Below the pieces are notes generated by a model. It made no database searches. It had not been told where the DNA came from and saw only the letters and a list, made by a program, of their open reading frames with translations. This document shows, one piece after another, positions 1 to 22,577 of a DNA stretch of 32,091 nucleotides (positions within the stretch are counted from its first letter, which is position 1; every line of letters starts with the position of its first letter). This DNA is from Desulfurivibrio alkaliphilus. GTDB taxonomy: Bacteria > Desulfobacterota > Desulfobulbia > Desulfobulbales > Desulfurivibrionaceae. A program made the translations under genes and the position numbers. Location: positions 1-32,091 of the forward strand of contig DSDS01000137.1 of assembly GCA_011048585.1 (NCBI GenBank), written 5' to 3'.

Positions 1-1
1 C

Positions 2-646
2 AGTTTTGACGCCATCGGGGCCTTCTCCCGGCGGGAGGATGCCCCGCATCAGGCTTCCCGCCCCTTTGATCAGGAGCGCGACGGCCTGATTCCCAGCGGG
101 GGAGCGGCCATCCTTTTTCTGGAGGCGGAAGAGGTCGCCAGGGCCAGAAAAGCTAAAATCATCGCTGAAATCAGCGGCTACGACTTCTCTTCCGACGGTT
201 ATCATCTTTCTGTGCCCAGCGGCGAGGGCCTTTCGCGCGCCATGCGGGGGGCCCTGGCCAACGCCGGAGTTTTACCCGCCGAGATCGATCTGGTGATGGC
301 CCACGCCACCTCCACCCCGGCCGGAGATGAAAAAGAGGCCCAGGCTTTGAGTCAGCTTTTCGGCCTGGAACAGGGGGAGCAGGGACCAGTGGTGGCCGCC
401 ACCAAGTCCCTTACCGGCCATGAATTCTGGATGGCCGGCGCCTCCCAGCTGATCTATGCCCTGCTCATGAGCCGGGCCGGTTTTGTCGCCGGCCACCCCA
501 ATCTGAGCAAGCCGGCCCCGGAAGCGGCGCTTTTACGAATACCCACCGCCACCATCGCCGCCACCCCTCACCATATTCTCTGCAACGCCGCCGGATTCGG
601 CGGCGTCAACGCCTGCCTGGTAGCCAAGGTACACCATGAAGTGTGA
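2..646 (+). CDS. beta-ketoacyl-ACP synthase, C-terminal part (5' end outside window)
   Basis: Frame is open from base 2 (SFDAIGAFSRREDAPHQASRPFDQERDGLIPSGGAAILFLE...). Carries the KS motifs AHATSTPAGDEKEA and ATKSLTGHEFWMAGAS and the C-terminal GFGGVNACLV. Confidence 0.93.
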   Translation, partial: SFDAIGAFSRREDAPHQASRPFDQERDGLIPSGGAAILFLEAEEVARARKAKIIAEISGYDFSSDGYHLSVPSGEGLSRAMRGALANAGVLPAEIDLVMAHATSTPAGDEKEAQALSQLFGLEQGEQGPVVAATKSLTGHEFWMAGASQLIYALLMSRAGFVAGHPNLSKPAPEAALLRIPTATIAATPHHILCNAAGFGGVNACLVAKVHHEV

Positions 647-2138
647 CGTGGTGGTGATCGGCAGTGGCATTAGCGGTTTGACCGCCGCCGCCCTGCTGGC
701 CAAAAGTGGCCGGAGCGTGGTGATCGTGGAGCGTACCTCCCGGCCGGGCGGGGCCCTGAAACGGTTTGTCCGCCAGGGGGTCCCCTTCGATGTCGGGTTC
801 CACTACACCGGCTGCCTGGGAGAGGGTGACGTGCTCACTACCCTCTGGGATTACCTGGGGGTGCGCGCCATAATCCCCATCCGCCCCTTCCCCCCCGACG
901 GCCACGACGAGCTGTCCATCGCCGGCTACGACCAGCCGGTACGGGCTTTTTTCTCCTACCGGCGCCTAAGGGATGAATTGGAGCGGAGATTCCCCGGAGA
1001 GCGGATCGCCATCGCTGACTACCTGGGCAAGATTGCCGCGATCTGCCAGAAAATCCCCTTTTACAACCTGGAGTTGCCCCTGACCCCGTTTCTGCGGGGC
1101 TTCCAGGAACCCCCCGTTTCATTGTGCGACTACTTAACCAAACTCACGGCTGATCCCCAGCTCCAGGCGGTCCTGGCCAGTCCCGCCTTCCTCTACGGGA
1201 TCCCGGTCGCGCGGGCAAGTCTGGCGGTCCACGCCATGGTCGCCCACGGCTTTTACCGCGGGGCCTATACCATAGATGGCGGTGGCCAAGCGGTGGTGGA
1301 CGCCTTCCTCCGGATCCTGGAGCAGGCCGGGGTAACCATAATCGGCAAAAACCGGGTCGACGAAATTCTGGTGGAAGGTGGCGTGGCGGCCGGGGTCCGC
1401 ACCGACCGCGGACAGATTATCCACTGTCGTGACGTAATCTACACCGGTCACCCTTCCGCCGTGCCGGCCATGGTGCCGGCGGGTATTTTCCGGCCGATCT
1501 ACCTGAAGAGAATCCAAGGGTTGCGCAACACCGCCTCCATGTTCGCGGTTTTCGCGGTGGCTCCGGATGAGACCCCCGGGGAACCCGACTGGGTCAACCA
1601 CTATCACATCCCGGCCGGGCTCGCCATTCTGCCCGAAACCGCGCGGGTGCCCAGAACGGAAAGGGTCCTGATGATGACCACCCCGGAGCGGGGCCGCTTG
1701 CCAAACTTGAAAAATAACCACCGGGGCATTATACTCCTCAGACCCGCGCTTTGGGAGGAGATTGAGAGATTCGCACCAACCGGTCGCCGCAGTCGCCCCC
1801 CGGCTTACCTGGCCTGGAAAGAGGAGCTGGCCGGGGAGATGATTGCGGCGGCCGGCCGCTACTGGGGGGAGAGCTACGCCGCCCTCCGTCCCTTGGCGGT
1901 GGGCACCCCCCTGACTTTTCGCGATGAGTTGGCCGCCCCTGAGGGAGCCGCCTACGGAGCCCAACATTGCCTGGGCCAGCACAACCCCGGAGCCCGGACC
2001 AGGCTGCCGGGCTTTTGGCTCGGTGGCCAGAGCACCCTGATGACCGGCGTGGTGGGGGCGGCCCTGGCCGGGTTGGTCAGCGCCGGAGAGATTTTGGGAC
2101 TGGAATCGACATGGGAGCAAGTGCGCCAATGCCGTTGA
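636..2138 (+). CDS. FAD-dependent oxidoreductase, phytoene desaturase/CrtI-like
   Basis: N-terminal dinucleotide-binding motif VVVIGSGISGLTAAALLAKSGRSVVIVERTSRPGG. C-terminal GFWLGGQSTLMTGVVGAALAGLVSAGEI resembles the CrtI family C-terminus. Confidence 0.85.
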   Translation: MKCDVVVIGSGISGLTAAALLAKSGRSVVIVERTSRPGGALKRFVRQGVPFDVGFHYTGCLGEGDVLTTLWDYLGVRAIIPIRPFPPDGHDELSIAGYDQPVRAFFSYRRLRDELERRFPGERIAIADYLGKIAAICQKIPFYNLELPLTPFLRGFQEPPVSLCDYLTKLTADPQLQAVLASPAFLYGIPVARASLAVHAMVAHGFYRGAYTIDGGGQAVVDAFLRILEQAGVTIIGKNRVDEILVEGGVAAGVRTDRGQIIHCRDVIYTGHPSAVPAMVPAGIFRPIYLKRIQGLRNTASMFAVFAVAPDETPGEPDWVNHYHIPAGLAILPETARVPRTERVLMMTTPERGRLPNLKNNHRGIILLRPALWEEIERFAPTGRRSRPPAYLAWKEELAGEMIAAAGRYWGESYAALRPLAVGTPLTFRDELAAPEGAAYGAQHCLGQHNPGARTRLPGFWLGGQSTLMTGVVGAALAGLVSAGEILGLESTWEQVRQCR

Positions 2139-3361
2139 AACGAGTTGTCATTACCGGGCGCGGCGCCGTTTCCCCCTTCGGCCTCGGAGTTCAACCCCTC
2201 CTGGAGGGGATCTGGGCCGGGCGCTCCGCCATCCGGGCCATGCCGGAGTGGGCCCGGATCGACGGCTTAAAAAGCCTCCTGGCCGCCCCGGTGCCCGATT
2301 TTGCCGACAAGGAGCTCCTGCCCCGCAGCCTGCGACGCACAATGGGCCCAATGGCCAAATATGCCACCTTGGCGGCTCTTGAGGCCGTCAAGGACGCCGG
2401 GATCGACCAATCCCTGCTGGCCACCGGCACCATCGGGGTCGCCGTCGGTTCCACCACCGGCAGTCCCTCCGCCTATGAAGATTTTTACCGCACCTTCCTG
2501 CCCGCTGAGACCATCGGCGGCATCAGGTCCGGCGAATTTTTTAAAATCATGGGCCACAGTTGCGCGGCCAATATCTGTCTGGCCTTGGGGATCCATGGCG
2601 AACAGTGGTCCCCGGTCAGCGCCTGCGCTTCCTCTTCCCAGGCCATCGGACTGGGCTATCTGCTGATCCAGGCGGGTCGCCAACGGGCCATGCTCTGCGG
2701 CGGCGCCGATGAAGTTCACCACTCGGTCACCGGGGTTTTCGACGTGGTCCGGGCCGCCTCGCTGCAAAACGACAATCCGGCCGCCACACCCAGACCCTTT
2801 GATGCCGAGCGGGACGGGGTGGTTTGCGGCGGCGGGGGCGGAATTATCCTGCTGGAGAGCTACGAGTCGGCCCGGGAAAGAGGCGCCAGGATTTACGGCG
2901 AAATCATCGGTTTTGGCAATGTCAACGACAGTGAGCATATCGCCAACCCCCATGAGGGCTCCATGGCCAGGGCCATGCTCAATGCCATGGACGAATCCAA
3001 GATCAGCCCCGCCGAGGTGGATTATGTCAACGCCCACGCCACCGCTACCCTGCTGGGCGATCCGGCCGAGGCCGCGGCCATCGCCAAGGTGGTGGGGGCC
3101 TCGGTGCCCACCAGCTCCTTTAAGGGGCATATCGGCCATACCCTGGGAGCGGCGGCGGCCCTGGAGACCATCGTTCTGCTGGAGATGCTCCAGCGCCAGG
3201 AGATCATTCCCACCCTTAATCTGGCAAACCCGGACCCGGAGTGCGCCGTGGCCAATCTGGTCCGTAAAATTGAAAAGAGAGCATTAACCACCGTGCTGAA
3301 AAACAACTTTGCCCTGGGCGGCGTCAACGCAGCTTTGGTTCTGAGGAGATTAACACCATGA
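2111..3361 (+). CDS. beta-ketoacyl-ACP synthase (FabF/KS-like)
   Basis: Start trimmed from ORF 1967 to MGASAPMPLKRVVITGRGAVSPFG. Active-site Cys in VSACASSSQA, His in NAHATATLLGDPAE, Lys/His in SFKGHIGHTLGAAAA. An alternative start is 2129. Confidence 0.93.
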   Translation: MGASAPMPLKRVVITGRGAVSPFGLGVQPLLEGIWAGRSAIRAMPEWARIDGLKSLLAAPVPDFADKELLPRSLRRTMGPMAKYATLAALEAVKDAGIDQSLLATGTIGVAVGSTTGSPSAYEDFYRTFLPAETIGGIRSGEFFKIMGHSCAANICLALGIHGEQWSPVSACASSSQAIGLGYLLIQAGRQRAMLCGGADEVHHSVTGVFDVVRAASLQNDNPAATPRPFDAERDGVVCGGGGGIILLESYESARERGARIYGEIIGFGNVNDSEHIANPHEGSMARAMLNAMDESKISPAEVDYVNAHATATLLGDPAEAAAIAKVVGASVPTSSFKGHIGHTLGAAAALETIVLLEMLQRQEIIPTLNLANPDPECAVANLVRKIEKRALTTVLKNNFALGGVNAALVLRRLTP

Positions 3362-3627
3362 TGAGCAACGACGAACTTCGCCGTCGAGTAGTTGCAACCC
3401 TGGCGGAAGAACTGGAGCTGGACCCCGAGGCGTTGACTCCGGAGGCCACCCTATACGATGACCTGGGCCTGGACAGCCTTGACGCCGTGGATATGGTGGT
3501 GGCCCTGGAGAAGAGTTTCGGGATGAAATTTAACGATGAGGAGAGCCTGAAGGCTGTCCGCACGGTTAACGACCTTTTTGAACTGCTGATCAAGTTGAAG
3601 GAAAGCCAAACCGCGGATGAAGCTTAG
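3358..3627 (+). CDS. acyl carrier protein
   Basis: 89 aa with phosphopantetheine site DDLGLDSLDAVDMVVALEKSFG. Start overlaps the preceding KS stop. Confidence 0.95.
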   Translation: MMSNDELRRRVVATLAEELELDPEALTPEATLYDDLGLDSLDAVDMVVALEKSFGMKFNDEESLKAVRTVNDLFELLIKLKESQTADEA

Positions 3628-4345
3628 CAGGCTGGCGGCCAATCTCTATTGCTGGTCAACCTTTATCCTTGTTACTCTGGCCTTCGGAGCGTTCCTGCCG
3701 CTACTCGCGCTGGCCCAAACCCTCTCTCCGGGCAAATCGCCTGGTCGACCTCTGCGGCTTGCCATCAGGAGATACGGCTGGATCCTGCTGCGTCTCCTCT
3801 CCCCGGCCGTGCCCATCTCCGTCGAAAACCGGGCCGGCGCGCTGCCCTTGCCGGCAATCTTTGTGGCTAACCACCGCTCCGCCCTCGACCCCTATCTCTT
3901 CGGGATGCTGGAGGTGGAAAACGCCTTTATCACCGGCTGGCCGTTCAATATCCCAATTTACGGCCGGGTGATGCGGGCCGCCGGCTACATCGACGCCCGC
4001 AACGGCTGGCCGGAGGTTGAAGCCCAGGGCCAGCACCTAATCGACGAGGGCTGCTCGCTGATTATCTGGCCCGAAGGGCATCGTTCCCGGGACGGCAAGC
4101 TGGGCCGTTTCCGCCAGGGCGCCTTCAAGCTGGCGGCGGCCACCGGCCGCCCCCTGATCCCGGTGGCAATCATCGGGGCGGGAGAGGTGTTGCCCCCCGG
4201 TAAATCCTTGTTGACTCCCGGCCCGATCAAGTTGATCATTCTGCCGCCGATCACCTTGAAAAAAGGAGATGACGGTGTTATAGTCCCTCGTCTTTTGGCA
4301 GCGGAAACCCGCAAGGCAATCACCAAGGAACTGGCTGCTTGGTAA
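3617..4345 (+). CDS. PlsC-like 1-acyl-glycerol-3-phosphate acyltransferase family
   Basis: NHX4D motif (NHRSALD) and PEGHRSRDGKLGRFRQGAFKLA. Confidence 0.9.
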   Translation: MKLSRLAANLYCWSTFILVTLAFGAFLPLLALAQTLSPGKSPGRPLRLAIRRYGWILLRLLSPAVPISVENRAGALPLPAIFVANHRSALDPYLFGMLEVENAFITGWPFNIPIYGRVMRAAGYIDARNGWPEVEAQGQHLIDEGCSLIIWPEGHRSRDGKLGRFRQGAFKLAAATGRPLIPVAIIGAGEVLPPGKSLLTPGPIKLIILPPITLKKGDDGVIVPRLLAAETRKAITKELAAW

Positions 4346-4380
4346 GCGCAGCCTACAACTGTTGGCCACCGGAACCGGAG

Positions 4381-5706
4381 ATGCGGATACCGCCCCCCAC
4401 CAGCCGATACTCCCTCACAAGCGGGATCTCCCTGCGAGAGTGTGGAAAAACCGAACGAGAAGCCGCCCAGCTGGAGTTGCTGCGCCGCCACCTGGAGCTG
4501 GCGGGCACCTCCGAATTTTATCGGGAAAAATTCCAACAGGTGGGGTTGGTGCCCAGTCAATTGCGCTCCCTGGCCGAGCTTCACAAGCTGCCCCTCACCG
4601 AGCGGGCGGACCTGAACCGCGGTCATGGCTGTTTTTTCCCCGCCGCCGACCTCACCGCCACCGACCTAGCCCTCACCTCCGGCACCACCGGCAATGCCGT
4701 CACCGTTCCCTACACCAGTAATGACCTGGAGCGGCTGGCCTACAATGAGATGATAGCCTTTTTTCGCATCGGCATCAAACCCGGCCAACGGGTTCTGCTT
4801 TGCGTTACCCTGGATCGCTGCTTTATCGCCGGACTGGCCTATTATACGGGCCTGGTCCGGCTGGGGGCCACCGCCATTCGCAGCGGCGCCGGCAGCCCTT
4901 CCCGGCAATGGGAATTGATTCGCACTTTGAACCCTTCGGTCATCGTAGGCGTGCCCACTTTTCTCTGGCAGTTGGCCCAATGGGGGCTGGAGCACGGGCT
5001 CGATCCGACCCGGGCCGGCATCGAAACCCTGGTCACCATCGGCGAACCGATCCGCAAGGCCGACCTGACCCTCACTCCCCTGGGGGAGATGCTGGAAAAA
5101 GGGTGGGGAGCCAAAACCTACGGTTCCTACGGGGCCACCGAACTGGAAACCGCCTTTGTCGAATGTCCCGCCACCGCCGGGGGCCATGTCCATCCCGAAC
5201 TGATGCTCGTGGAGATTATCGACGAAACCGGCACGCCGGTGCCGGACGGCCAGCCGGGGGAAGTGGTGGTCACCCCCCTGGGGGTTGAAGGCCTGCCGCT
5301 GGTCCGTTTTCGCACCGGCGATGTCGCCCGACTCTACCCTGAACCCTGCTCCTGCGGCTGGCAGACCCCGCGCCTGGGCCCCATTGAGGGACGGTTGGCC
5401 CAACGGCTCAAGTGCCGGGGAACCACCCTCTACCCGGAAAACATCTTCCAGGCCATCGACGAAATTCCCGGCATTGCCGCCTACTACGTGGAAGCCCGGG
5501 CCCACTTCAGCCTCGCCGACGAGATCACGGTAGTGGTGGGCGGAGACGAAGCGGTTGAACCGGCCGCGATCCAGGAGCGGTTGCAAGCCAAACTACGGGT
5601 AAAACCGGAGGTTATAAAAAGATCTCCGGCCGAGGTGGTTGCTGTGATTGAAAAAGGCAGTGGCCGAAAAATGAAAAGATTTTTTGATTTTCGGAAGGTA
5701 GAATAA
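4381..5706 (+). CDS. phenylacetate-CoA ligase (PaaK)-like adenylate-forming enzyme
   Basis: AMP-binding motif LALTSGTTGNAVTVPYT, YGSYGATELE, RFRTGDVARLYPEPCSCG, and a C-terminal domain (GTTLYPENIFQAIDEIPGI). ATG at 4381 preferred over the TTG at 4339. Confidence 0.88.
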   Translation: MRIPPPTSRYSLTSGISLRECGKTEREAAQLELLRRHLELAGTSEFYREKFQQVGLVPSQLRSLAELHKLPLTERADLNRGHGCFFPAADLTATDLALTSGTTGNAVTVPYTSNDLERLAYNEMIAFFRIGIKPGQRVLLCVTLDRCFIAGLAYYTGLVRLGATAIRSGAGSPSRQWELIRTLNPSVIVGVPTFLWQLAQWGLEHGLDPTRAGIETLVTIGEPIRKADLTLTPLGEMLEKGWGAKTYGSYGATELETAFVECPATAGGHVHPELMLVEIIDETGTPVPDGQPGEVVVTPLGVEGLPLVRFRTGDVARLYPEPCSCGWQTPRLGPIEGRLAQRLKCRGTTLYPENIFQAIDEIPGIAAYYVEARAHFSLADEITVVVGGDEAVEPAAIQERLQAKLRVKPEVIKRSPAEVVAVIEKGSGRKMKRFFDFRKVE

Positions 5707-5708
5707 CC

Positions 5709-6743
5709 GTGTCGTGTTTAAGTGAATATTGGGGGCAGGAGTTCACCCCGCAGGAGATCGCCCAGACCCGGAAAAACAACGGGCTGCTGTCGCTGGAGCT
5801 TGAGCTTTCCCGGGCGTGCAATATCCGTTGTGTGTACTGCTATGCCGCTTCCGGTCTACCCCTGGCCAATGAGCTTACCGCCGCCGAAATCGAGAATGTG
5901 ATCGACCAGGCCACCGCCCTCGGCATCCGCAAAATTATCGTCCTCGGCGGCGGCGAGCCCCTCTTCTATCCCAGCATTTTCGAGGTGATCGATTACATTC
6001 TGGCCAAGGGGATCAAGGTGGACATCTTTACCAACGGCACCCTGATCACCCCGGAGATCGCCGAGCTCCTGGCCCAGAAAGGGGTGGCGGTGGTGATCAA
6101 GATGAACAGCCGCGATGCCGCCGTCCAGGATTATCTGGCGGGACGGCCGGGAACCTTCGCCGCCATCGAAAAGGGCCTGGCGGCCCTGCTGGCCGCCGGC
6201 TACCCAAACGAGCATCTTCTGCTGGGCATTCAGACCATTATCTGTCGCCAGAACTATGATGAACTTCCCGATATCTGGCGCTGGGCCCGCAGCCGGAAGA
6301 TCATCCCCTATGTGGAGATGATGACCCTGCAGGGCAGAGCCTCCGAGCACCCCGAGTTGGAAGTTCCCATAACCGAGATCAAAACCCTTTTTGAAAAGCT
6401 CTCCGAGATCGACGCCAAGGAGTTCGGCCAAACCTGGACCCCCCACCCGCCCCTGGCCGCTTCCCAGTGTTCCCGCCATGAATACTCCTGTACCGTGACC
6501 TCCATCGGCGAGGTTCATCCCTGCCCCGGAGTTAACTTGCCGGTGGGCAACATCCGTGAGCAGTCGCTGGCCGATATTCTGCGCACCAGCAAGATTATCC
6601 GCGATCTGCGCAACATCCGGACCACCATCAAGGGTAAATGTTCCGGCTGTGACTATAACACCATCTGTTACGGCTGTCGCGGCCATGCCTACCAGGTAAC
6701 GGGGGATTACCTGGCCGAGGATCCGCTTTGCTGGCTGAAATAG
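5709..6743 (+). CDS. radical SAM protein with SPASM-like C-terminal Cys cluster
   Basis: CX3CX2C in SRACNIRCVYCYA. C-terminal Cys-rich region CSRHEYSCTVTSIGEVHPCPGVN...GKCSGCDYNTICYGCRGHAY...DPLCW. GTG start. Confidence 0.9.
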   Translation: MSCLSEYWGQEFTPQEIAQTRKNNGLLSLELELSRACNIRCVYCYAASGLPLANELTAAEIENVIDQATALGIRKIIVLGGGEPLFYPSIFEVIDYILAKGIKVDIFTNGTLITPEIAELLAQKGVAVVIKMNSRDAAVQDYLAGRPGTFAAIEKGLAALLAAGYPNEHLLLGIQTIICRQNYDELPDIWRWARSRKIIPYVEMMTLQGRASEHPELEVPITEIKTLFEKLSEIDAKEFGQTWTPHPPLAASQCSRHEYSCTVTSIGEVHPCPGVNLPVGNIREQSLADILRTSKIIRDLRNIRTTIKGKCSGCDYNTICYGCRGHAYQVTGDYLAEDPLCWLK

Positions 6744-6771
6744 CAAAACCGGGAAGAACCGGGGAAAACCG

Positions 6772-7419
6772 ATGAAGATACGCCGCCGCCCCGGCCAGCG
6801 CCACAACCCGCTCCGAATAAGTCCGGGGCGGGCGGCTTTCTCGGCCTTCTCCCTCTTTTCACTTATCTTAACCCACCTTTCTCCGGGTCCCTGGCTGCCG
6901 GGGGTGCTGGCCAGTGAGCGGGGGAGGGATAAGGCCGACTGGATTCTGCTGGCCGGCTACGGCACCAGCCATCCCGGGATGGGGGCCACCAAACTCCGGA
7001 TACAGACCGTCGATCTGGTCCCCAGGTATGAGCGGAACCTGACAGCAAACCCGGGCTCATCCTGGTACCGGGGTGAGCACTCTTTGCTGCTGGAGCTGCC
7101 GCTCCACCTGGCGGTGAGTCCTGACAGTACCCTCATGGCGGGGATCAACTTCCTGGCCTGCTGGCGATTCACCGCCCATGACCGGCTGCAGCCCTACCTC
7201 CTGGCCGGGGGTGGTCCCCTCTACATGGCCAGCAATCTGGAGGGGATGGGAACCAGGCTGAACGGCAACTACCAGTTCGGCATCGGCCTGCGCCGACCGA
7301 TGGGCCACCACAGATACCTGAATTTGGAATACCGTTTTCACCATGTCTCAAACGGGAACCGCAAGGAGCCCAATGATCCCCTCAACTCAAGCAAATTTTT
7401 GCTGGGGGTAACCTTTTAA
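6772..7419 (+). CDS. PagL/acyloxyacyl hydrolase-like outer-membrane lipid A deacylase
   Basis: Hydrophobic N-terminus. C-terminal motif LEYRFHHVSNGNRKEPNDPLNSSKFLLGVTF resembles the PagL His-X-Ser region (HHxSNGN). Confidence 0.75.
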   Translation: MKIRRRPGQRHNPLRISPGRAAFSAFSLFSLILTHLSPGPWLPGVLASERGRDKADWILLAGYGTSHPGMGATKLRIQTVDLVPRYERNLTANPGSSWYRGEHSLLLELPLHLAVSPDSTLMAGINFLACWRFTAHDRLQPYLLAGGGPLYMASNLEGMGTRLNGNYQFGIGLRRPMGHHRYLNLEYRFHHVSNGNRKEPNDPLNSSKFLLGVTF

Positions 7420-7436
7420 CCGAAGCGGAAGCAGCT

Positions 7437-7991
7437 TTGCCGACACCAAACAGCCCTGACTCGCGGGATTATTATCGTTATGCCTTCTGCGAAACGGCCA
7501 GCCCGGAGGTAACCCGACTGCTGGCGGCGACTCCTTCCCGCTGGGGACGAATGCCGCCCCTGAGTCGAGCCCTGGTGGTGGAAGCGGGCCGCGTCCTGGT
7601 GGAAAACGGTCTCTTGGCGCCGGGCGAGAAATTTTCGGACCAGGGCAAACGGGTGGGGCTGATCGGGGGCACCACCACCGGTTCCCTGGCCACTGATCTG
7701 GAGTTCGCCGCCACCCTGCTGACCGGTCCCAACCTGGCCAGTCCGGCCCTCTTCGGCTATACTCTGCCCAACATCCCCCTCTCCGAAGCCGCCAACCACT
7801 TCGGCCTGATCGGTCCGGTTTACGCGATCTTTGCCCCGGAGTCGCCGTTGGTCGCCGCCGAGGAGGAAGCCGGCCGCTGGCTCGTCAGCCAGCCCGAACT
7901 TACCCTGATGCTCGCCTGTGCCTTCGACAGCCGGCCCATGCCCGGTCAGGCCGGTCAACTGGCCATAACCTTCACCATCGTGAGCCGATAA
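7437..7991 (+). CDS. truncated beta-ketoacyl synthase-like protein (N-terminal half; possible chain-length-factor-like partner)
   Basis: GLIGGTTTGSLATDLEF resembles the KS GTTxG region. FGLIGPVYAIFAPESPLVAAEEEAGRWL aligns without gaps to the KS nucleophile region but has no Cys. TTG start is uncertain. Confidence 0.75.
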   Translation: MPTPNSPDSRDYYRYAFCETASPEVTRLLAATPSRWGRMPPLSRALVVEAGRVLVENGLLAPGEKFSDQGKRVGLIGGTTTGSLATDLEFAATLLTGPNLASPALFGYTLPNIPLSEAANHFGLIGPVYAIFAPESPLVAAEEEAGRWLVSQPELTLMLACAFDSRPMPGQAGQLAITFTIVSR

Positions 7992-7993
7992 AG

Positions 7994-9256: not shown

Positions 9257-9261
9257 TCGCC

Positions 9262-12697: not shown

Positions 12698-12722
12698 CTT
12701 AAACCAACCAAATGGAAGAAGC

Positions 12723-12980
12723 ATGGAAGAGCTCAAAGAGAAACTGAAGCGGATCTTGATCGACGAGATCAAAATCCAGGGGATGACCCCAGCGGACCTC
12801 AAGGACGATATGCCCCTGTTCGGCGATGACGGTCTGGGGCTTGACTCCCTGGATGCGGTGGAACTAGTCGTCCTGGTACAAAAGCATTTCGACGTCCAGA
12901 TTGCCGACATGGAGGAGGGCAAAGAGGCCTTCGCCTCCATCGCCAGCCTGGCCAACTATATTCACCAGAAAAAGAGCTGA
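12723..12980 (+). CDS. acyl carrier protein
   Basis: Starts MEELKEKLKRILIDEIK. Phosphopantetheine site DDGLGLDSLDAVELVVLVQKHF. Confidence 0.94.
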   Translation: MEELKEKLKRILIDEIKIQGMTPADLKDDMPLFGDDGLGLDSLDAVELVVLVQKHFDVQIADMEEGKEAFASIASLANYIHQKKS

Positions 12981-12989
12981 AGGTAAGTT

Positions 12990-14228: not shown

Positions 14229-15040
14229 GCAATCCGGTGAGCAAGGATGTTTTTGTCGCCAAGGTGGCACGGGAGATCGGGGTTCCAACCATTCCCGCCG
14301 ACCTGCTCCGCGACCTGCGCCGGGCCGATCTTTTTATCCAGGTGGCCGTGCTGGCCGGAAGCGCGGCCCTGGGTTCCGGCTCAGGCGATGATCCCTGCCA
14401 GACCGGGGTCTTTCTGGGCACCACCACCGGCCCGCTGGATACCAATTTCGGCTTCCTCGATTCCCTCTTCGACAACGGTGAAAGCCAGGCCTCTCCCACC
14501 CTCTTTTCCCATTCGGTGCATAACGCCGCCGCCGGCTATCTCGCCCGCCTCCTGAATCTCAGAGGACCGGCCCAAACGGTCACCAGTCCCGGCTGGCCCT
14601 TTCTGGCGGCCCTGGCCGAGGCCAAAACCGCCTTGGAGCTGATGCCGTTTAAAAGGGCCCTGGTGCTGGCCGTGGAGGAGGAATCCCCGGTGCTGGTTGA
14701 GGCCGCGACCAGGAGCTCGGCCCCGGCGTCGGCTCCCTCCCCGCGACGGGGAGCGGTAGCCTGGTTGCTGACCACCGAGACCGAGTCAAGGTACCGCTTA
14801 CCCAGATTAAACTCTATCCTGGTGGAAGAGAACCATTGCGCCGCCGAGTTCTACCTGCGGCGCCAGGAGGAGGTTTTTCAGCCGGATTTTACCCTTGCCC
14901 CCGGAGCAGAAGCCCCGGCCGGGCTGGCTGGGGCCCTGGCTTTGACCCAGGCCGTGGAGGAAATTGGACCCGGAGACGGCCCGCTCTTCTGGACCGCCAC
15001 TGCCTTCTGCGGCCGTGCCTCGGTTCGCATTGAACGGTAA
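14225..15040 (+). CDS. truncated/degenerate beta-ketoacyl synthase-like protein (KS N-terminal-domain-like)
   Basis: ATG at 14225 overlaps the upstream KS stop. GVFLGTTTGPLDTNFGF and LNLRGPAQTVTSPGWPFLAALAEAKTAL match the KS pattern without the catalytic Cys. Confidence 0.78.
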   Translation: MSNPVSKDVFVAKVAREIGVPTIPADLLRDLRRADLFIQVAVLAGSAALGSGSGDDPCQTGVFLGTTTGPLDTNFGFLDSLFDNGESQASPTLFSHSVHNAAAGYLARLLNLRGPAQTVTSPGWPFLAALAEAKTALELMPFKRALVLAVEEESPVLVEAATRSSAPASAPSPRRGAVAWLLTTETESRYRLPRLNSILVEENHCAAEFYLRRQEEVFQPDFTLAPGAEAPAGLAGALALTQAVEEIGPGDGPLFWTATAFCGRASVRIER

Positions 15041-15078
15041 GGCTCTTGACCCCGTTTCGGGAAAGCAAACCACAACCC

Positions 15079-15086
15079 AAGGAGGT
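15079..15086 (+). promoter_or_regulatory. strong Shine-Dalgarno sequence upstream of the BamE-like secreted protein gene
   Basis: AAGGAGGT, 6 nt before the ATG at 15093. Confidence 0.7.
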
Positions 15087-15092
15087 GTCAAA

Positions 15093-15698
15093 ATGAAATT
15101 AACCAACTGGATTCTGGCCACCACCGTCGCAATTGTCGCCTGCCATCTGAGCCTGGGAGCCACCCCGGCCCTGGCCATTCAATCCCTGAGCGGGATGGTC
15201 GGCCAGACTTACTATCTGGCCTACAATCTCCATCCCGATCCGAAAAGAAATACCCTCTCGTCGGTCAACTATCAACTGGATGGGGCCATGATCCCCTGGG
15301 GCACCCAGGTGAAGGTGCAGAGGGTCGACCGCCGGGGGATGAGACTGGAGGCGGTGGAGAGTAAAAAGGTTTACCTCTATCAGTTTCATCGGAACACCGG
15401 CCAGACCCTGGCCCTGAGCGACCACATGGCCAAACTGCTGGTCAAGGATATCTCCGGCCTGAAAAAGGAGGTCAATGCCCTGCCGGCTCTCGATCAGCGG
15501 GGCATCAAAGAGGGGCGGGTCAAGCTGGGGATGACCAAGCGAGGCACCCTGATCGCCATCGGTCACCCCCCGGAATTCGCCACCCCCAACCCCGAAAGCG
15601 ACAACACCTGGAATTACTGGTACAATCGCTTCCGCACCTTCATCGTTAATTTCGACGACAAGGGCAAGGTGGAAGGGCTAACCGGCTATCCCTTTTAA
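15093..15698 (+). CDS. secreted protein, possible BamE/SmpA-like C-terminal domain
   Basis: Signal peptide MKLTNWILATTVAIVACHLSLGATPALA. C-terminal GRVKLGMTKRGTLIAIGHPPE...WNYWYNRFRTFIVNFDDKGKVEGL is SmpA-like. AAGGAGGT Shine-Dalgarno upstream. Confidence 0.7.
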   Translation: MKLTNWILATTVAIVACHLSLGATPALAIQSLSGMVGQTYYLAYNLHPDPKRNTLSSVNYQLDGAMIPWGTQVKVQRVDRRGMRLEAVESKKVYLYQFHRNTGQTLALSDHMAKLLVKDISGLKKEVNALPALDQRGIKEGRVKLGMTKRGTLIAIGHPPEFATPNPESDNTWNYWYNRFRTFIVNFDDKGKVEGLTGYPF

Positions 15699-15740
15699 TT
15701 CCCGGTTTTCTTCGACAACTATTTACTTGATGGGAACAAG

Positions 15741-16469
15741 ATGACCCAAACACCCATAGCTTTCATCTCCGGGGCCAGCCGAGGCATTGGCGCCGCCATC
15801 GCCCTCCGGCTGGCCGCCGGCGGTTACGATATCTGGCTCAACTACCACGCCTCCCATGGCCCAGCCCAGTCCCTGCGCGAACAGATCGAGGCCATGGGCC
15901 GCCGGTGTACCCTGCTTTCCTTCGACGTGGCCGATGAGGCGGCGGTGACGGCAGCACTGGACCCCCTGCTGGACCAGGCGGTGCCCTACGCCTTTATCCA
16001 TAACGCCGGGATCACCCGCGATGGCCTGCTGCCCATGATGGGCCGCGACAGCTGGGACCAGGTCCTCAACACCCACCTCACCGGCTTTTTCCTCATGGGC
16101 CGCCTGATCTCCAAGGCGATGCTCTCCAAACGGCAGGGGCGAATCATCGCCATCGCCTCGGTCTCGGGCGAGACCGGCCAGGCCGGGCAGGTCAACTATG
16201 CCGCCGCCAAGGCCGGTCTGATCGGGGCCTGCAAATCCCTGGCCCGGGAGCTGGCCCGACGCAACATCCTGGTCAATGTGGTCTCCCCGGGGCTGATCGC
16301 CACCGAAATGATCAAGGATCTGCCCCTGGATAAGATCCTGCCCCTGGTGCCCTTGAACCGGGTCGGCACCGTGGATGAGGTCTCGGGAGTGGTCGAGTTT
16401 CTGCTCGGCCCGGCCGCCGGCTACATCACCGGCCAGGTGATCGGAGTCAACGGCGGCCTCTACATGTAG
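15741..16469 (+). CDS. fabG: 3-oxoacyl-ACP reductase (SDR family, FabG-like)
   Basis: Short-chain dehydrogenase motifs SGASRGIGAAIALRLA, IHNAGITRDGLL, NYAAAKAGL, and GQVIGVNGGLYM. Confidence 0.93.
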   Translation: MTQTPIAFISGASRGIGAAIALRLAAGGYDIWLNYHASHGPAQSLREQIEAMGRRCTLLSFDVADEAAVTAALDPLLDQAVPYAFIHNAGITRDGLLPMMGRDSWDQVLNTHLTGFFLMGRLISKAMLSKRQGRIIAIASVSGETGQAGQVNYAAAKAGLIGACKSLARELARRNILVNVVSPGLIATEMIKDLPLDKILPLVPLNRVGTVDEVSGVVEFLLGPAAGYITGQVIGVNGGLYM

Positions 16470-16509
16470 CGTGACCGGCCGCCCGCCCAATCCACCCAAA
16501 AGGAACCCG

Positions 16510-16953
16510 ATGAACTCCATCCAACTGCCCCATCCGGTGACGGAATTTATGCCCCACCGACCACCGATGCTCCTGGTGGCCACCCTGCTGGAACGCGGCC
16601 GGGAGGCGGTGGTCGAGGCCACGGTGCCCGCGAAGGGCATCTGGCTTGACGAAAACTCCCGGGTGCTGCCCGAGTACTATATCGAGCTGGTCGCCCAGGC
16701 CATGGCCGCGGTCAATGGTTATGACGCCCGGCAGGCGGGGAAGGAACCCGAGGGGGGAATGCTGGTGGGGGTCGACCAATTCTCCCTGCGGGCTTTGCCC
16801 GATCCCGGCCGTACGGTTTGGATCGATGTCGCCAAAACCTTTGAGTTCGGGGCGGTCAAGATCGTCAACGGATCGGTGCGTGATGCCGGCGGCAAACTGG
16901 CCGAGGTCAAGCTTAAAATCTGGTCGGGCGACCTGCCGGGGGGGAACCCATGA
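16510..16953 (+). CDS. hotdog-fold 3-hydroxyacyl-ACP dehydratase-like protein
   Basis: FMPHRPPMLLVATLLERGREAVVEATV and EYYIELVAQAMAAVNGYDARQ match the FabZ/ApeP-like hotdog pattern. Start trimmed from 16471. Confidence 0.82.
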   Translation: MNSIQLPHPVTEFMPHRPPMLLVATLLERGREAVVEATVPAKGIWLDENSRVLPEYYIELVAQAMAAVNGYDARQAGKEPEGGMLVGVDQFSLRALPDPGRTVWIDVAKTFEFGAVKIVNGSVRDAGGKLAEVKLKIWSGDLPGGNP

Positions 16954-17591
16954 TCCTGGCCCGGCCCATAAGGGGGCTGTTCCTGCTGCTCTGTTTTTTG
17001 CTGCCGGCGGCACCCGCCACGGCCACCGGCGAAGATCCAGCCGCTCTGCTGCGGGAGCTGGAAGCCACCGCCGCCAAAGTCCGCAACCTCTCCTGCTCCT
17101 TTACCCAGGAGAAGCAACTGGCCCTTTTCGCCCGCCCGGTAATCTTCCACGGCACCCTCCATCTGGCCAGACCCGATCGTTTGCGCTGGGAATTTACCCG
17201 CCCGGTGCCTTCGGTCCTGATTTTCAAGGGGGAGAGCGGCCTGCGCTGCGCCGAGGGCCAAACCACCCGCTTCGACCTCAACAGCGATCCGATCACGCGG
17301 ATGGTGGCCCACCAGCTCTGGCTCTGGCTGGGCGGAGATTATGCCAAGCTGGCGGCCGAGTACCATCTCACCCTGGCCGCCCCCCACACCTTGCTGGTTG
17401 AACCCCAAAACCGGAAAATCGGCGAGTTTGTCGCCTCGGTCACCATCACTTTCGACCCGGCCTCCCTGCAGCCAAGGCAGGTGAAAATTGCCGAACCCGG
17501 CGGCGACACGACCACCATCTCCTTCCACGCCTACCAACTCGATGCCCCCCTTGATGAAAATCTTTTCAACCGTTGCGACAGCCGTGAGTAA
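16950..17591 (+). CDS. LolA-like outer-membrane lipoprotein carrier family protein
   Basis: Signal peptide, then VRNLSCSFTQEKQLALFARPVIFHGTLHLARPDRLRWEFTRPVPSVLIFKG, the LolA-like pattern. ATGA overlap with the preceding gene. Confidence 0.88.
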   Translation: MILARPIRGLFLLLCFLLPAAPATATGEDPAALLRELEATAAKVRNLSCSFTQEKQLALFARPVIFHGTLHLARPDRLRWEFTRPVPSVLIFKGESGLRCAEGQTTRFDLNSDPITRMVAHQLWLWLGGDYAKLAAEYHLTLAAPHTLLVEPQNRKIGEFVASVTITFDPASLQPRQVKIAEPGGDTTTISFHAYQLDAPLDENLFNRCDSRE

Positions 17592-19968
17592 ACCTTCGCT
17601 GCCGTGGCCCTGGCTGCTGGTGCTGCTGATTGTGGCGGCCGGCACCTGGCAGGCTTTCAAGCTGGAGATCAACGACGACGCCCTGGATCTTTTACCCGGA
17701 GAGGCGGTCCGCGGCGACATTGCCCTGCTGCAGCAGCTGGGCCTGGTGGACCGCCTCTTTATCACCCTGACCCATGACCCCGCCCGCTACCCGGATGGGG
17801 AAGCAACGCTCAGCGCCCTGAAAGCCAGCGCCTTGGGAGTCGGGGAGGCCATGGCGGCGGCCCCGCTGTTCACCGAAGTGATCTACCGTTTTCCCCCCGA
17901 TTTTGAACTGGCCCTTTTCCAGGAACTTGAGCCCCACCTGCCCACCCTGCTCAGTGAGGATGAACTGACCGCCCTGACCCCTCGACTGGCCGAGCAGCAA
18001 CTGACCCGAACCCTAAAGACCAACTTTGCCCGCCTCAACAGTCCGGCCGGTTTTATCCTCAAAAACCAGGTCCAGCGTGATCCCCTGGGCCTGATGGGCC
18101 TGGTGCTGCAAAAACTGTCCCATCTTGAAAGCGGCTTCACCGGCTCCATCAGCGACGGCTTTTTCCTCAGCGATAATCGCCGCAGCATCCTCCTGCTGGC
18201 GGAAAGCGGCAGATCGCTGACCGACTCCAGCGGGGCCAGGGAGGTGGCCCGGCAGCTGGCGAAGATCATGGACGACAACCTGGCCGCCGGGGTGGAGTGG
18301 CGGGTAATCGGCTCCCTGCCCCACACCCTGGCCAATGCCGACTCCGTTCAGCGCGACCTGCGGCTGCTTCTGCCGGTGGCCACCATCCTCCTCTTTACCA
18401 TGCTGATCTTTACCCTGCGGGACTGGCGGGCTTTTCTGGTGCTGGGCATCCCCTTCCTGGCTGCTCCGGCCGCCATCGCGGTGATGGGAATGATCCATGG
18501 CCGGGTCAGCGCCTTGGCTCTGGGTTTCGGGATCGTCCTGATCGGCATCGCCGTTGACTTTGCCGTGCATATCTATCTGGCCCTGGTCGGCGCGGAGGGC
18601 GACAGCAAACAGATCAAGCAGTTGCTGTTGCGGCCCGTGGTCCTGGCCACCCTGACCACCGCCGGGGTTTTCATCATCCTGCTCTTTTCCGAAGTCCCCT
18701 CCCATCGCCAGATGGCCTCCCTCTCCCTGAGCGGCATTCTCCTGGCGGTGATCTTCTCCTGGCTGCTGCTGCCCACCATCGTTCACCCCGGGCGAAGAAG
18801 GGAGCGCCCGGCCCCCTGGTTCCGGGTGCCGAACATCACCTCGCTACCGGGGCGGCTTGCGGCTCTGGCCCTGTGGGGCTCCCTGCTGGCCGCCGGAGTG
18901 CTCTCCTGGCCGCAACTGACTTACAATGGCGACCTGCAGGTGCTGGACGCCCCCGACCCCAAAGTACTCGCCGATGAAGAGCACTTCCGCGCCACCTGGC
19001 GGGAGCGGGGGGACCAGGCCTTTGTGGTGGCGGCCGGCTCCACCCTGGAACAGGCTCTCGAGCGGAATTTCATCGTCTATCAGCACCTGGGGCAAACCGA
19101 CTCCCTGCGGTTTCAGAGCCTGGCTCCGCTGCTCCCCGGGCCGGCGGCCCAACAGCGGCAACTGACCGCCTGGAACGATTTCTGGCATTCCCACTCCGAG
19201 GAGTTCCTACCCCGGTTCAACAAGGCCGCGGCGGCGGCCGGCTTCGCCCCCGAAGCCTTTAAACCCTTCCTCCAGCGACTCAACGCCCCACCGGCGGCTT
19301 CCAGTCCGGAAAAAATTCTCCAGGGGCCGCTGCAACCCCTGCTGGCCACCATGGTAAGGTGGCCCAACCGGTCAACCGCCGGCAACAGAGCGGATATTCT
19401 GCTGTTGACCACGGTGGAACCGGCGGCCGAAGCCCTTCCTCTGCTGCTGGCCCTGGAGGCTGAACATCCCGGGATCACCGTACTCGCCAACCAGAAGTGG
19501 CGGCGGCAGGTGGAGGAGCTGATGCGCCACGATATGGTGGTCCTGGTCAGCGGAGCCGCCCTCCTGATCGGCCTGCTGGCCCTGCTGGCCTTCAAAAAAC
19601 CCCGGCTGGTGCTGGCCGTGCTGGCCCCGGTCCTGTCGGCCCTGGCCGCCATGATCATCTTCAGCCGGCTGACCAGCGGCGAACTCAACATGATGCATCT
19701 TTTAATGGGAATCATGGTGATCGGCCTGAGCGTGGATTACGGGATTTTCGTGGTCTGCGCCCGGGGGGGGCGGCTGGAGGGCAAAACTTTTCTGGCGGTT
19801 TCCATTTGCGCCGCCAGTTCGCTGCTCAGTTTCGGGGTCTTGGCCTTTGCTCAGCACCCCGCCCTCCACTCCCTGGGGGTGACCGTGCTTTGCGGCATCG
19901 GCCTGGCCTGGCCCACGGCGCTGTTGATCTCGCCCATTCTGGCCGGCAACGGCTACCAGGAACGCTAG
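17554..19968 (+). CDS. MMPL/RND-family exporter
   Basis: Two repeats of hydrophobic helices (FGIVLIGIAVDFAVHIYLALVG and LMGIMVIGLSVDYGIFVVCARGG). Start 17542 or 17554, overlapping lolA-like. Confidence 0.9.
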   Translation: MKIFSTVATAVSKPSLPWPWLLVLLIVAAGTWQAFKLEINDDALDLLPGEAVRGDIALLQQLGLVDRLFITLTHDPARYPDGEATLSALKASALGVGEAMAAAPLFTEVIYRFPPDFELALFQELEPHLPTLLSEDELTALTPRLAEQQLTRTLKTNFARLNSPAGFILKNQVQRDPLGLMGLVLQKLSHLESGFTGSISDGFFLSDNRRSILLLAESGRSLTDSSGAREVARQLAKIMDDNLAAGVEWRVIGSLPHTLANADSVQRDLRLLLPVATILLFTMLIFTLRDWRAFLVLGIPFLAAPAAIAVMGMIHGRVSALALGFGIVLIGIAVDFAVHIYLALVGAEGDSKQIKQLLLRPVVLATLTTAGVFIILLFSEVPSHRQMASLSLSGILLAVIFSWLLLPTIVHPGRRRERPAPWFRVPNITSLPGRLAALALWGSLLAAGVLSWPQLTYNGDLQVLDAPDPKVLADEEHFRATWRERGDQAFVVAAGSTLEQALERNFIVYQHLGQTDSLRFQSLAPLLPGPAAQQRQLTAWNDFWHSHSEEFLPRFNKAAAAAGFAPEAFKPFLQRLNAPPAASSPEKILQGPLQPLLATMVRWPNRSTAGNRADILLLTTVEPAAEALPLLLALEAEHPGITVLANQKWRRQVEELMRHDMVVLVSGAALLIGLLALLAFKKPRLVLAVLAPVLSALAAMIIFSRLTSGELNMMHLLMGIMVIGLSVDYGIFVVCARGGRLEGKTFLAVSICAASSLLSFGVLAFAQHPALHSLGVTVLCGIGLAWPTALLISPILAGNGYQER

Positions 19969-20553
19969 ATGGGAAGGTTACTCCGCCCGCTCACGCCACT
20001 GCTGCTGCTGCTCGGCCTGGTGGCCGCCTGCGCCCTGCCGGTCCGGTCGCCGGTCAGCGAGCCGGACCACCCGCCGGCCGCTTCGGCAGAGGGCGGGGAA
20101 CAGCTTTGGCGGATCAAGATCCTGCGGGGAGGAGAGACCCAATTTGCCGGCCTGCTCGGCACCAGAATGGAGGACGACGGGCTCTACTATGTCCTGCTGG
20201 ACGGCTCGGGAGTGACCCTGCTTGAAGCCCGACTGAGCGCCGGCGGCGAGTACCAGCCTATCCGGGAGCTGAAGATATTTCGCGACCACCGGCTGCCGGG
20301 GTTCCTGGCCCAATCCCTGCGGCGGATCTTTCTGCTGCAGCCGGCCGCCGCGCCCTGCGACCGCAACCTGTTGCTGCGCTTTTGCCAGCAGGAAGCCAGC
20401 GCTCAAGGGATGAAGAAGTTCGCCAAACTCGGCCCCCTGCCCCTCTGGAGGGTGGAGTACACCGGCCAACCGGCAACTTTAGCCGTCAACTGGACGGGAA
20501 TTGCTTTCACAAATCCCTGGCTCCGGGTAACATTACTCCTTACCAGAGAGTAA
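19969..20553 (+). CDS. lipoprotein, DUF3261-like
   Basis: Lipoprotein signal MGRLLRPLTPLLLLLGLVAAC. APE clusters typically carry a DUF3261 lipoprotein beside the MMPL exporter, which supports the call. Confidence 0.68.
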   Translation: MGRLLRPLTPLLLLLGLVAACALPVRSPVSEPDHPPAASAEGGEQLWRIKILRGGETQFAGLLGTRMEDDGLYYVLLDGSGVTLLEARLSAGGEYQPIRELKIFRDHRLPGFLAQSLRRIFLLQPAAAPCDRNLLLRFCQQEASAQGMKKFAKLGPLPLWRVEYTGQPATLAVNWTGIAFTNPWLRVTLLLTRE

Positions 20554-20608
20554 TCGACAATTTATCGACCCTGGTGAACACTTACCACCAGAGATTAGGA
20601 GAGGATTG

Positions 20609-20995
20609 ATGCCGGCGATTGAAGAGTCGCTACACAACTCCCTGCGCCGGTGGCAACGGGAACAGCGGGAGGGAGAGATCGCCGCGACCGGAGAATTCAG
20701 CTTCGCTCCCACCTTTCCCGCCTTCAACGGTCATTTTCCCGGGCAGCCGATCCTGCCGGCGGTGGTTCAATTGGCCGCGGTGCGCCATCTGGCGGAGCTG
20801 GCGATGGGTGAGAAACTCAGCCCCGGGGGCTGCCGCAACGTAAAATTCCGCAGCGCGGTCCGGCCCGATGACCTTATCCGGGCCGCCATCGTCCTTAAAC
20901 CCCAAGGGCCGGGCTGGCAGGCGAATTTCTCCCTGCAACGGGCCGGAGAAACGGTGGCCGACGGAACCATCGACCTCTCTTCGGCACACCGGTAA
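20609..20995 (+). CDS. 3-hydroxyacyl-ACP dehydratase-like hotdog protein (ApeI/FabA-Z-like)
   Basis: FPAFNGHFPGQPILPAVVQLAAVRHLAELA is the classic GHFPGxPxxPGV-like hotdog motif. Confidence 0.85.
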   Translation: MPAIEESLHNSLRRWQREQREGEIAATGEFSFAPTFPAFNGHFPGQPILPAVVQLAAVRHLAELAMGEKLSPGGCRNVKFRSAVRPDDLIRAAIVLKPQGPGWQANFSLQRAGETVADGTIDLSSAHR

Positions 20996-21003
20996 CCTTT
21001 GCC

Positions 21004-21474
21004 ATGGGCCTGCTGAAAAAATATTTCCCCATCGATCCGGGCGCTCCCCCTCCCCTTACCGCCACCATCACCAGACGGGTGCGTTTCGAAGAGGTGGACA
21101 TGCTGAGAATTGTCTGGCACGGTCGCTACCCCAGCTACTTCGAAGATGGCCGCATCGCCTCCGGCGACCGCTACGGCTTGAGTTACCGCCAATTTATCGA
21201 TCACGGGGTTCTCGCGCCCATCGTCCAGATGCAGATCGACTACAAAGCTCCCCTCATCTTCGATGAAGAGATCACCATCGCGGCAACCCTGCACTGGAAT
21301 GACGCCGTGCGGCTGGACTACAGCTATCTGATCAGCGGCGCGGACGGCCGGGTGGCGGCCAGCGGCTGCACCGTCCAACTGCTGACCGATCCCCAAGGCG
21401 GCCTGATGCTGACCCATCCCGAGTGGATTGCAGCGTTCAGGGAAAAATGGCGGCGAGGCATTCTGGCACCATGA
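21004..21474 (+). CDS. acyl-CoA/ACP thioesterase (4-hydroxybenzoyl-CoA thioesterase-like)
   Basis: RRVRFEEVDMLRIVWHGRYPSYFEDGRIASGDRYGLSYRQF matches the hotdog thioesterase pattern. Confidence 0.88.
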   Translation: MGLLKKYFPIDPGAPPPLTATITRRVRFEEVDMLRIVWHGRYPSYFEDGRIASGDRYGLSYRQFIDHGVLAPIVQMQIDYKAPLIFDEEITIAATLHWNDAVRLDYSYLISGADGRVAASGCTVQLLTDPQGGLMLTHPEWIAAFREKWRRGILAP

Positions 21475-22577
21475 GTACGATTGTCGTCAGCATGACAGGA
21501 GTGGAAACGGCCCTGGGCAACGGCGAGGCGACCTGGCAGGGCCTGCTGGCCGGTCGTTCGGGTTTGCGAACCGACCCGCGGGCGGGCTTGTCCGATTCCC
21601 GGCCGGTGGGGATGGTGGCCGAGCTGCCGGCCCCCATCGGCACCGACAAACGGCTCCGAGCCCTGCTGGACCGGCTGCTGGCCACCATTCCGATCCTTCC
21701 CCCCCAAACCGCCCTTTTCTGCGCGACCACCAAGGGGGCGGTCGATGAACTGCTCGACGGACCGGGGCCCTGGCCGGGCCAGCCCCAGACCTTAAGCGGA
21801 TATCTCGGTCGGCAACTGGGCCTGGGCGGCAGCGACCATCTGGTAACCAGCGGAGCCTGCGCCTCGGGCACCATCGCCGTCATGCAGGCCGCCACGCGCC
21901 TGCAAGCCGGAGCCTGTCCGGCCGCCCTGGTGATCGGAGTGGATCTTCTCAGCCGTTTCGTCCTGGAGGGATTCGCCAGTCTCCAAGCCCTTTCCGCCAA
22001 CGGTTGCCGACCCTTCGACGCCGCCAGGGACGGCCTCTCCCTGGGCGAGGGGGGCGGCTGGATCCTGCTCACCACCGCCGCCGAGGCCGCCAACCGGCAG
22101 TGGCCGATCCTGGCACAACTCGCCGGCTTCGGCATCTCCTGCGATGCCTCCCACATTACCGCCCCCTGCCGCCACGCCAGCGGCCTGATCAGAACCCTGC
22201 AACAGGCAACCGCCAATGGCCGAAAAAAGGTCGGCGGGATCAATGCCCACGGCACCGGGACATCGTATAACGACGCCATGGAGTTGCTGGCCTTCTCTCG
22301 GGTCTGGGAGAGCCCCCCTCCGGTCCACTCGGTCAAAGGGGCTATCGGTCACTGCCTGGGGGCAGCCGGGGTGATCGAAGCGGCCATTGCCGTCCGCAGC
22401 CTCACAGAAGGCGTGCTGCCACCCACCGTGGGTCTCCGCCAGGGGGAAAACGCCGCCATCCCCATGCACGGCAACACCCCCCTACCCCTGACCGCCCCCT
22501 CGATAATCAGCTGCAACTCGGGTTTCGGCGGCATCAATGCCGCCCTGCTCTTCAGCAAGGATTCCGGGTCGCGATAA
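21471..22577 (+). CDS. beta-ketoacyl-ACP synthase
   Basis: ATG at 21471 overlaps the thioesterase stop. Cys in LVTSGACASGTIAV, His in INAHGTGTSYNDAME, Lys/His in SVKGAIGHCLGAAGVIEA. Confidence 0.93.
   Translation: MSTIVVSMTGVETALGNGEATWQGLLAGRSGLRTDPRAGLSDSRPVGMVAELPAPIGTDKRLRALLDRLLATIPILPPQTALFCATTKGAVDELLDGPGPWPGQPQTLSGYLGRQLGLGGSDHLVTSGACASGTIAVMQAATRLQAGACPAALVIGVDLLSRFVLEGFASLQALSANGCRPFDAARDGLSLGEGGGWILLTTAAEAANRQWPILAQLAGFGISCDASHITAPCRHASGLIRTLQQATANGRKKVGGINAHGTGTSYNDAMELLAFSRVWESPPPVHSVKGAIGHCLGAAGVIEAAIAVRSLTEGVLPPTVGLRQGENAAIPMHGNTPLPLTAPSIISCNSGFGGINAALLFSKDSGSR

Follow-up and report, generated by a model that had tools for sequence, protein, structure and literature searches.

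Gene content and setting of the operon

We analyzed a window of 32,091 bp, the whole of contig DSDS01000137.1 (C3 among the contigs of its genome) from the assembly of a sulfur-cycling anaerobe, Desulfurivibrio alkaliphilus (GCA_011048585.1; 1.75 Mb, 78% complete). An operon of 25 successive plus-strand genes (g1 to g25) occupies positions 1-22,577, with 11 overlapping adjacent pairs and no gap wider than 52 bp; it joins a type II fatty acid synthase (FAS-II) backbone of the aryl polyene (APE) kind to three radical SAM enzymes, a CrtI-like flavoprotein and an AMP ligase. The locus is a new, nearly complete example of a published, functionally unsolved cluster type, with a resorcinol module added in this lineage. 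Pfam assigns almost all of the 25 genes, and the operon is not a chance assembly, since almost all its genes have syntenically ordered orthologues in other genomes. The original prediction, made from the letters of this stretch, had described about 25 such overlapping or near-touching genes, and its list of ketosynthases (KSs), acyl carrier proteins (ACPs), a ketoacyl reductase (KR), two dehydratases, a thioesterase, acyltransferases, a family 2 glycosyltransferase (GT2), LolA, PagL and radical SAM proteins agrees with Pfam (weakly for g10); it made no mention of the AMP ligase (4339-5706) or of a secreted protein (15,087-15,698).

The contig begins inside g1 (1-646; PF02801), of which the window holds the C-terminal KS part. 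Another contig of the same genome, C82, ends with the exact bases 1-123 of the window, and joining the two by this 123-base exact overlap restores the 5′ end of g1 (a full KS of 420 aa) and adds the genes upstream; the extension, which the original prediction had proposed, thus also supplied an adjoining dialkylresorcinol (dar) module. The join is unproven by reads but is supported by an identical order in the complete genome of a congener (G002, loci L155/L156), which has the same locus. The nearest isolate by g10 identity is Desulfurivibrio sp. AMeS2 (81%), whose genome is placed in the same genus.

Four KSs retain the catalytic Cys, His, Lys and His: g1, the ApeR-like g3 (2123-3361; 41% identity to E. 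coli ApeR), the ApeO-like g15 (12,990-14,228; PF00109, PF02801; 35%) and g25 (21,471-22,577; PF02801, PF00109). These residues are lost in g9 (7437-7991; 184 aa) and g16 (14,225-15,040; 271 aa), which the original prediction had rightly called truncated KSs. Pfam identifies g16 (PF13723, with a weak ApeC match) and has no match to g9; the AlphaFold model of g9 (pLDDT 92.9) leads in Foldseek to the N-terminal halves of KSs and to the 203-residue small chain of 7f28, a KS/half-KS pair. The half-size KSs of APE loci are chain length factors (CLFs; PMC8358021), a role that the original prediction had missed, and g9 and g16 are probably CLFs of this type. In other phyla g25 directly precedes g9 (L056, L061, L078, L103) and g15 precedes g16, so the locus probably contains two KS/CLF pairs, with g16 as the likely partner of g15.

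The remaining assembly genes comprise two ACPs (g4, 3358-3627, PF00550, 47% to ApeF; g14, 12,723-12,980, PF00550, 37% to ApeE), two hot-dog dehydratases of APE type (g19, 16,471-16,953, PF22817, an ApeP match; g23, 20,606-20,995, ApeI/FabA-like, PF07977, 33% to ApeI), a 4HBT thioesterase (g24, 21,004-21,474; PF13279; 31% to ApeK) and a FabG/FlxB/ApeQ-like KR (g18, 15,741-16,469; 44% to ApeQ; YxxxK motif; FabG model over cut-off). This KR is the single reductase in the operon, with no second reductase or enoyl reductase in the locus, and the chain would therefore be expected to stay unsaturated. Candidate attachment genes encode a lysophospholipid-type acyltransferase (g5, 3617-4345; PF01553; ApeD-like), a GT2 with DUF2062 (g12, 10,605-11,795; PF00535, PF09835; matching the glycosyltransferase half of ApeJ) and an LpxL/HtrB-type acyltransferase (g13, 11,786-12,697; PF03279; also matching ApeJ). 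The usual HX4E/D motif of LpxL-like proteins reads HxGNWQ in g13 and in 48 matches of related loci, and HLGNWE in the anammox homologues; the catalysis or acceptor may differ.

Export would involve a LolA-like carrier (g20, 16,950-17,591; PF03548; nearest NCBIfam model flexirubin LolA2), an MMPL-type exporter (g21, 17,554-19,968) and a lipoprotein (g22, 19,969-20,553; lipobox LVAAC). The MMPL assignment made earlier agrees with the ApeM match of g21, with PF03176 just under cut-off (19.1 against 20.5 bits); for g22, the predicted lipoprotein and the position of the E. coli DUF3261 gene (ApeN) stood, but the DUF3261 label did not, because Pfam gave no match even at E = 10. Two further envelope genes encode a PagL-like outer-membrane deacylase (g8, 6772-7419; PF09411), which adjoins DarG in L186 and L193, and the secreted protein mentioned above (g17), with an N-terminal signal-like stretch and a weak BamE-domain match (PF04355, E 0.0018, under cut-off).

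Thirteen of the 18 proteins of the E. coli CFT073 APE locus have counterparts in the operon: ApeR, Q, P, O, M, L, K, J (split into g12 and g13), I, F, E, D and, weakly, C. KS/CLF logic, the two dehydratases, the KR, LolA and MMPL are shared, whereas ApeH, ApeB, ApeG and ApeA have no counterpart among the operon proteins and ApeN has none by sequence. Conversely, the CrtI-like protein, the AMP ligase, the radical SAM enzymes and PagL have no match in the E. coli APE locus, in line with the earlier remark that CrtI, radical SAM and PagL fall outside the canonical set. That the locus has an APE-like backbone therefore stood; the extras are not ad hoc, since CrtI, the AMP ligase and all three radical SAM types recur together in the anammox clusters described next.

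Radical SAM enzymes and the ladderane-candidate clusters

The proteins that set the operon apart are the CrtI-like FAD-dependent desaturase/oxidoreductase (g2, 636-2138; Pfam NAD_binding_8 and Amino_oxidase; CrtD/CrtI-type NCBIfam scores far under cut-off), the AMP ligase of PaaK/FlxY type (g6, 4339-5706; PF00501; 406 bits to FlxY, cut-off 520; no match to ApeH) and the radical SAM trio. The latter consists of a radical SAM/SPASM enzyme (g7, 5709-6743; PF04055, PF13186; CNIRCVYC), a radical SAM protein with a degenerate B12-type N-terminal domain and an AprD4-like fold (g10, 7994-9256; CRFNCFPC; weak Pfam radical SAM match) and a B12-binding/radical SAM enzyme (g11, 9262-10,608). The last belongs to TIGR04072, “rSAM_ladder_B12” (584.7 bits, cut-off 360), a family found over its cut-off in 22 of 58 relatives and in none of 14 control genomes.

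Clusters of this kind were missed by the original prediction but had been published: they are the ladderane-candidate FAS-II clusters of anammox bacteria (Kuenenia Kuste3335-3352; Rattray 2009, PMC2649909), and FAS-II/radical SAM clusters of the same kind were reported in 2009 in the related bacteria Desulfotalea psychrophila, Geobacter and Pelobacter (PMC2649909). Ladderane-type clusters of unassigned function, found with antiSMASH, are also reported from many phyla of an anoxic basin (PMC9902471), and expressing the Kuenenia genes in a heterologous host left the pathway unsolved (PMC4790861). We chose anammox genomes for comparison by matches in frames of 800-850 aa, and one, Kuenenia-like, additionally because the active-site signatures of its KSs are those given for Kuste3348 and Kuste3606 in Table 2 of PMC2649909. 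PF18582 was rejected as an anammox marker, being unspecific (it matches 60 of 296 Planctomycetota).

In the Kuenenia-like genome the cluster runs LpxL-like, LolA, a g10-like enzyme, three KSs, ligase (37% identity to g6), g7 (51%), g11 (36%), KR, ACP, MMPL, CrtI-like and GT2, an order similar to that of the window; its g11 homologue is also a TIGR04072 member (440 bits), and three further anammox genomes agree closely with it. The CrtI-like protein, the SPASM radical SAM enzyme (51-53% to the anammox cluster proteins), the PaaK-type ligase and KSs thus occur jointly in the window and in four anammox genomes, and synteny with the anammox clusters extends to the radical SAM trio, CrtI and the ligase. 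There are differences as well: most genes are only 22-40% identical, the non-catalytic KSs of the window are half-size CLFs with no counterpart of the full-length KS paralogues lacking active-site residues (Kuste3348, Kuste3606 type), g10 belongs to another lineage, Pfam finds no SAM-dependent methyltransferase (Kuste3347 type) among the 25 operon genes, and a dar module adjoins the operon. The trees for g11 and g6 put the anammox sequences on a separate long branch, whereas that for g7 makes them sister to the Desulfobulbales clade (SH-aLRT 99). We therefore find no support for the idea, which we had considered, that anammox bacteria gained all their cluster genes in one transfer from Desulfobulbales.

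The original prediction would have been refuted by radical SAM and CrtI genes that fail to accompany the FAS-II genes in relatives, but the two sets are conserved together there. We collected 80 g10 loci from a GTDB collection, which bear at least eight phylum labels (Deltaproteobacteria/Desulfobacterota, Nitrospirota, Omnitrophota, Calditrichota, Kiritimatiellota, Lentisphaerota, Planctomycetota and Spirochaetota). In the 36 loci that span 20 kb or more, g9 and g11-g16 are each present in 31-35, g7 in 26, g6 in 22 and PagL in only 7, with the outer genes undercounted because the flanks extend only 10 kb; of the 14 genomes checked whole, 10 have a CrtI-like homologue no more than 20 kb from g10. 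The most conserved protein of the locus is g10, with a median identity of 78% in Desulfobulbales-type loci and 61% in the remaining loci, in which the other genes show 26-54%; its CRFNCFPC motif is invariant in 38 orthologues. The anammox relatives of g10 are only 30-37% identical, and by identity none of 19 anammox genomes has an orthologue. No NCBIfam family contains g10 above cut-off, and its fold is nearest to that of the radical SAM diol-dehydratase AprD4 (TM 0.74). We had expected an ordinary cobalamin enzyme and came to doubt it; with a B12-domain match under cut-off and an AprD4-like fold, g10 may not use cobalamin. The spread of the locus under at least eight phylum labels, with the g10 conservation measured here, seems to be new.

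The dialkylresorcinol module

Directly upstream, C82 carries DarG, DarH, an ABC ATPase, an ABC permease and an ACP, followed on the opposite strand by DarB and a flavodoxin-like gene. The matches of DarB (597 bits, cut-off 450), DarH (462, cut-off 300) and DarG (family 135, cut-off 70) are all over cut-off, and the same arrangement is present in the complete congener genome. Loci for flexirubins and dialkylresorcinols (Chitinophaga, PMC3992019; Azoarcus, PMC3949708) likewise have DarB, DarH, DarG, an ABC transporter and an ACP beside a polyene FAS-II; compared with them, radical SAM and CrtI genes are added here, and no tyrosine ammonia-lyase was found in 29 genomes.

Genomes with DarB nearly always have the locus as well. 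Over cut-off in 21 of the 58 relatives, DarB is accompanied by a g10 orthologue in 20 of these; five genomes have g10 only, one DarB only and 32 neither (Fisher p 5e-10, a value that ignores relatedness). In one genus of the family (g4 in our numbering of genera) the two are jointly present or jointly absent in every genome. In seven relatives a single contig holds DarB and g10 no more than about 21 kb apart, as the contig overlap implies here. In the five of these that we inspected, the dar genes adjoin CrtI, PagL, g7 and KS genes or are interleaved with them, and interleaving with CrtI, PagL and g7 is seen in L184-L193. We also saw, in L156 and L184-L193, extra radical SAM genes (23-25% identical to g10/g11) between the dar genes and the g7 region; none was seen there in this genome. 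In a search that covered few subscription journals, we found no literature linking ladderane-type clusters of anaerobes to dialkylresorcinol or flexirubin genes, and no description of a dar linkage for the Desulfotalea-type clusters; the joined dar module seems to be a new addition to the cluster type.

Proposed pathway and alternatives

From gene content, synteny, family membership, catalytic motifs and co-occurrence, all observed, we infer the reactions and the product as follows. The locus would direct the anaerobic synthesis of a polyene lipid of the outer membrane, akin to flexirubins and aryl polyenes, linked to a resorcinol here and tailored by ladderane-associated enzymes, a reading to which we give about an even chance. 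The FlxY-like ligase g6 would load a starter onto an ACP, and the KS/CLF pairs g15/g16 and g25/g9, with the ApeR-like KSs, the KR and two dehydratases, would build a chain that should be a conjugated polyene given the lack of an enoyl reductase. The CrtI-like flavoprotein and the three radical SAM enzymes may then desaturate, isomerise or otherwise tailor it without oxygen; the thioesterase, acyltransferases and GT2 would attach it to a carrier, and LolA, MMPL and the lipoprotein would carry it on to the outer membrane. A dialkylresorcinol, to which DarH would esterify the polyene, probably comes from the dar module in Desulfurivibrio and many relatives. The modified polyene or unusual outer-membrane lipid of the original prediction is thus kept as the best guess. 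A separate observation concerns Pontiella strain F1T, an isolate related to a carrier in our set (L096, Pontiellaceae): it is yellow, and its authors suspected carotenoids or aryl polyenes (PMC7356697).

Several observations weigh against this resorcinol-linked polyene. Flexirubin models are the best or second-best match for the ligase, KR and LolA, yet all three miss the cut-offs, and the flavodoxin-like gene beside DarB, a possible DarA aromatase, has no convincing family match. DarB and g10 are on different contigs in 11 of the 20 genomes having both; DarB over cut-off was found in none of the 19 anammox genomes and was absent from 13 of 14 other carriers (present in 1 of 33 overall), and with the five g10 genomes that lack it, a resorcinol ester cannot be the general product. 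An aromatic ammonia-lyase (PF00221), which would include the FlxA tyrosine ammonia-lyase, was found in none of 29 genomes, in a search that did not extend to a chorismate-derived aryl supply; a tyrosine-derived start of flexirubin type is therefore unlikely, and an “aryl” start for the product is unsupported.

The same missing lyase counts against an ordinary APE carboxylic acid lipid as in E. coli, merely decorated by the radical SAM enzymes and CrtI. In its favor, 13 of the 18 E. coli proteins have counterparts, the two dehydratases, KS/CLF and LolA-MMPL among them; against it, the ApeH-type ligase and the ApeB, ApeG and ApeA counterparts are missing and there are additional KSs and a resorcinol module. 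We consider it improbable. An unusual acyl chain might instead serve lipid A or phospholipid modification, giving no pigment, with PagL deacylating and the LpxL- and PlsC-type acyltransferases re-acylating. All three genes, for PagL, the LpxL-like protein and the lysophospholipid-type acyltransferase, are in the operon, and PagL recurs adjoining dar genes; this too seems unlikely, because the lysophospholipid-type and GT2-acyltransferase genes are normal parts of APE loci and PagL is in so few full-length loci (7 of 36).

The proposal made in 2009 for D. psychrophila, that the cluster makes polyunsaturated fatty acids or hydrocarbons anaerobically, drew on a syntenic cluster reported together with C31 polyenes (C31:8, C31:9; PMC2649909). 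We give it little credence, since C31:9, and with it the hydrocarbons used as support, is now linked to Pfa and Ole enzymes, Geobacter included (PMC4882568), and since export genes and a dar module are ill-suited to a free hydrocarbon. A cyclobutane (ladderane-like) lipid in a non-anammox bacterium would fit the TIGR04072 membership of g11, the synteny of the three radical SAM types, CrtI and the ligase with the anammox clusters, and the position of anammox g7 as sister to the Desulfobulbales clade. It is nevertheless very improbable: no ladderanes were detected in D. psychrophila (PMC2649909), nothing in the locus corresponds to the full-length non-catalytic KSs of Kuenenia, and g10 is not, by identity, an orthologue of the anammox enzyme.

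Downstream, a sensor gene on the reverse strand (22,595-25,666; Tll0287, PAS, GAF and HD domains) converges on the operon end, 17 bases away. It is followed by a reverse-strand frame of 488 aa (25,773-27,239) in which endonuclease III (HhH-GPD) is fused to an exonuclease III-like domain. This fusion is matched over its full length in 23 of 37 relatives; most of the rest show two separate or split matches. UmuD-like, UmuC-like and RecD2-like genes follow consecutively on the forward strand (27,354-31,684), and then a partial LpxB gene on the opposite strand.

A wider and tentative proposal may be made, which we think rather doubtful: ladderane biosynthesis would derive from an older anaerobic pathway for polyenes of flexirubin/APE type. 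The radical SAM trio, the CrtI-like protein and the FlxY-like ligase would serve generally, across many anaerobic phyla, to tailor a conjugated polyene bound to an ACP. Anammox bacteria would have replaced the half-size CLFs and the g10 enzyme by other versions and would make cyclobutanes from the polyene, and Desulfobulbales would esterify the polyene to a dialkylresorcinol. The locus offers access, outside anammox bacteria, to the unsolved ladderane-associated lipid pathway, and cultured organisms with orthologous loci (Desulfurivibrio, Desulfosediminicola, Victivallis vadensis) carry these enzyme families and can be grown for analysis. Should the dar link be true, the substrate of the ladderane-associated radical SAM enzymes becomes predictable (an ACP-bound polyene) and testable, and anaerobes would gain a flexirubin-like lipid class of which we found no earlier description in the literature covered.

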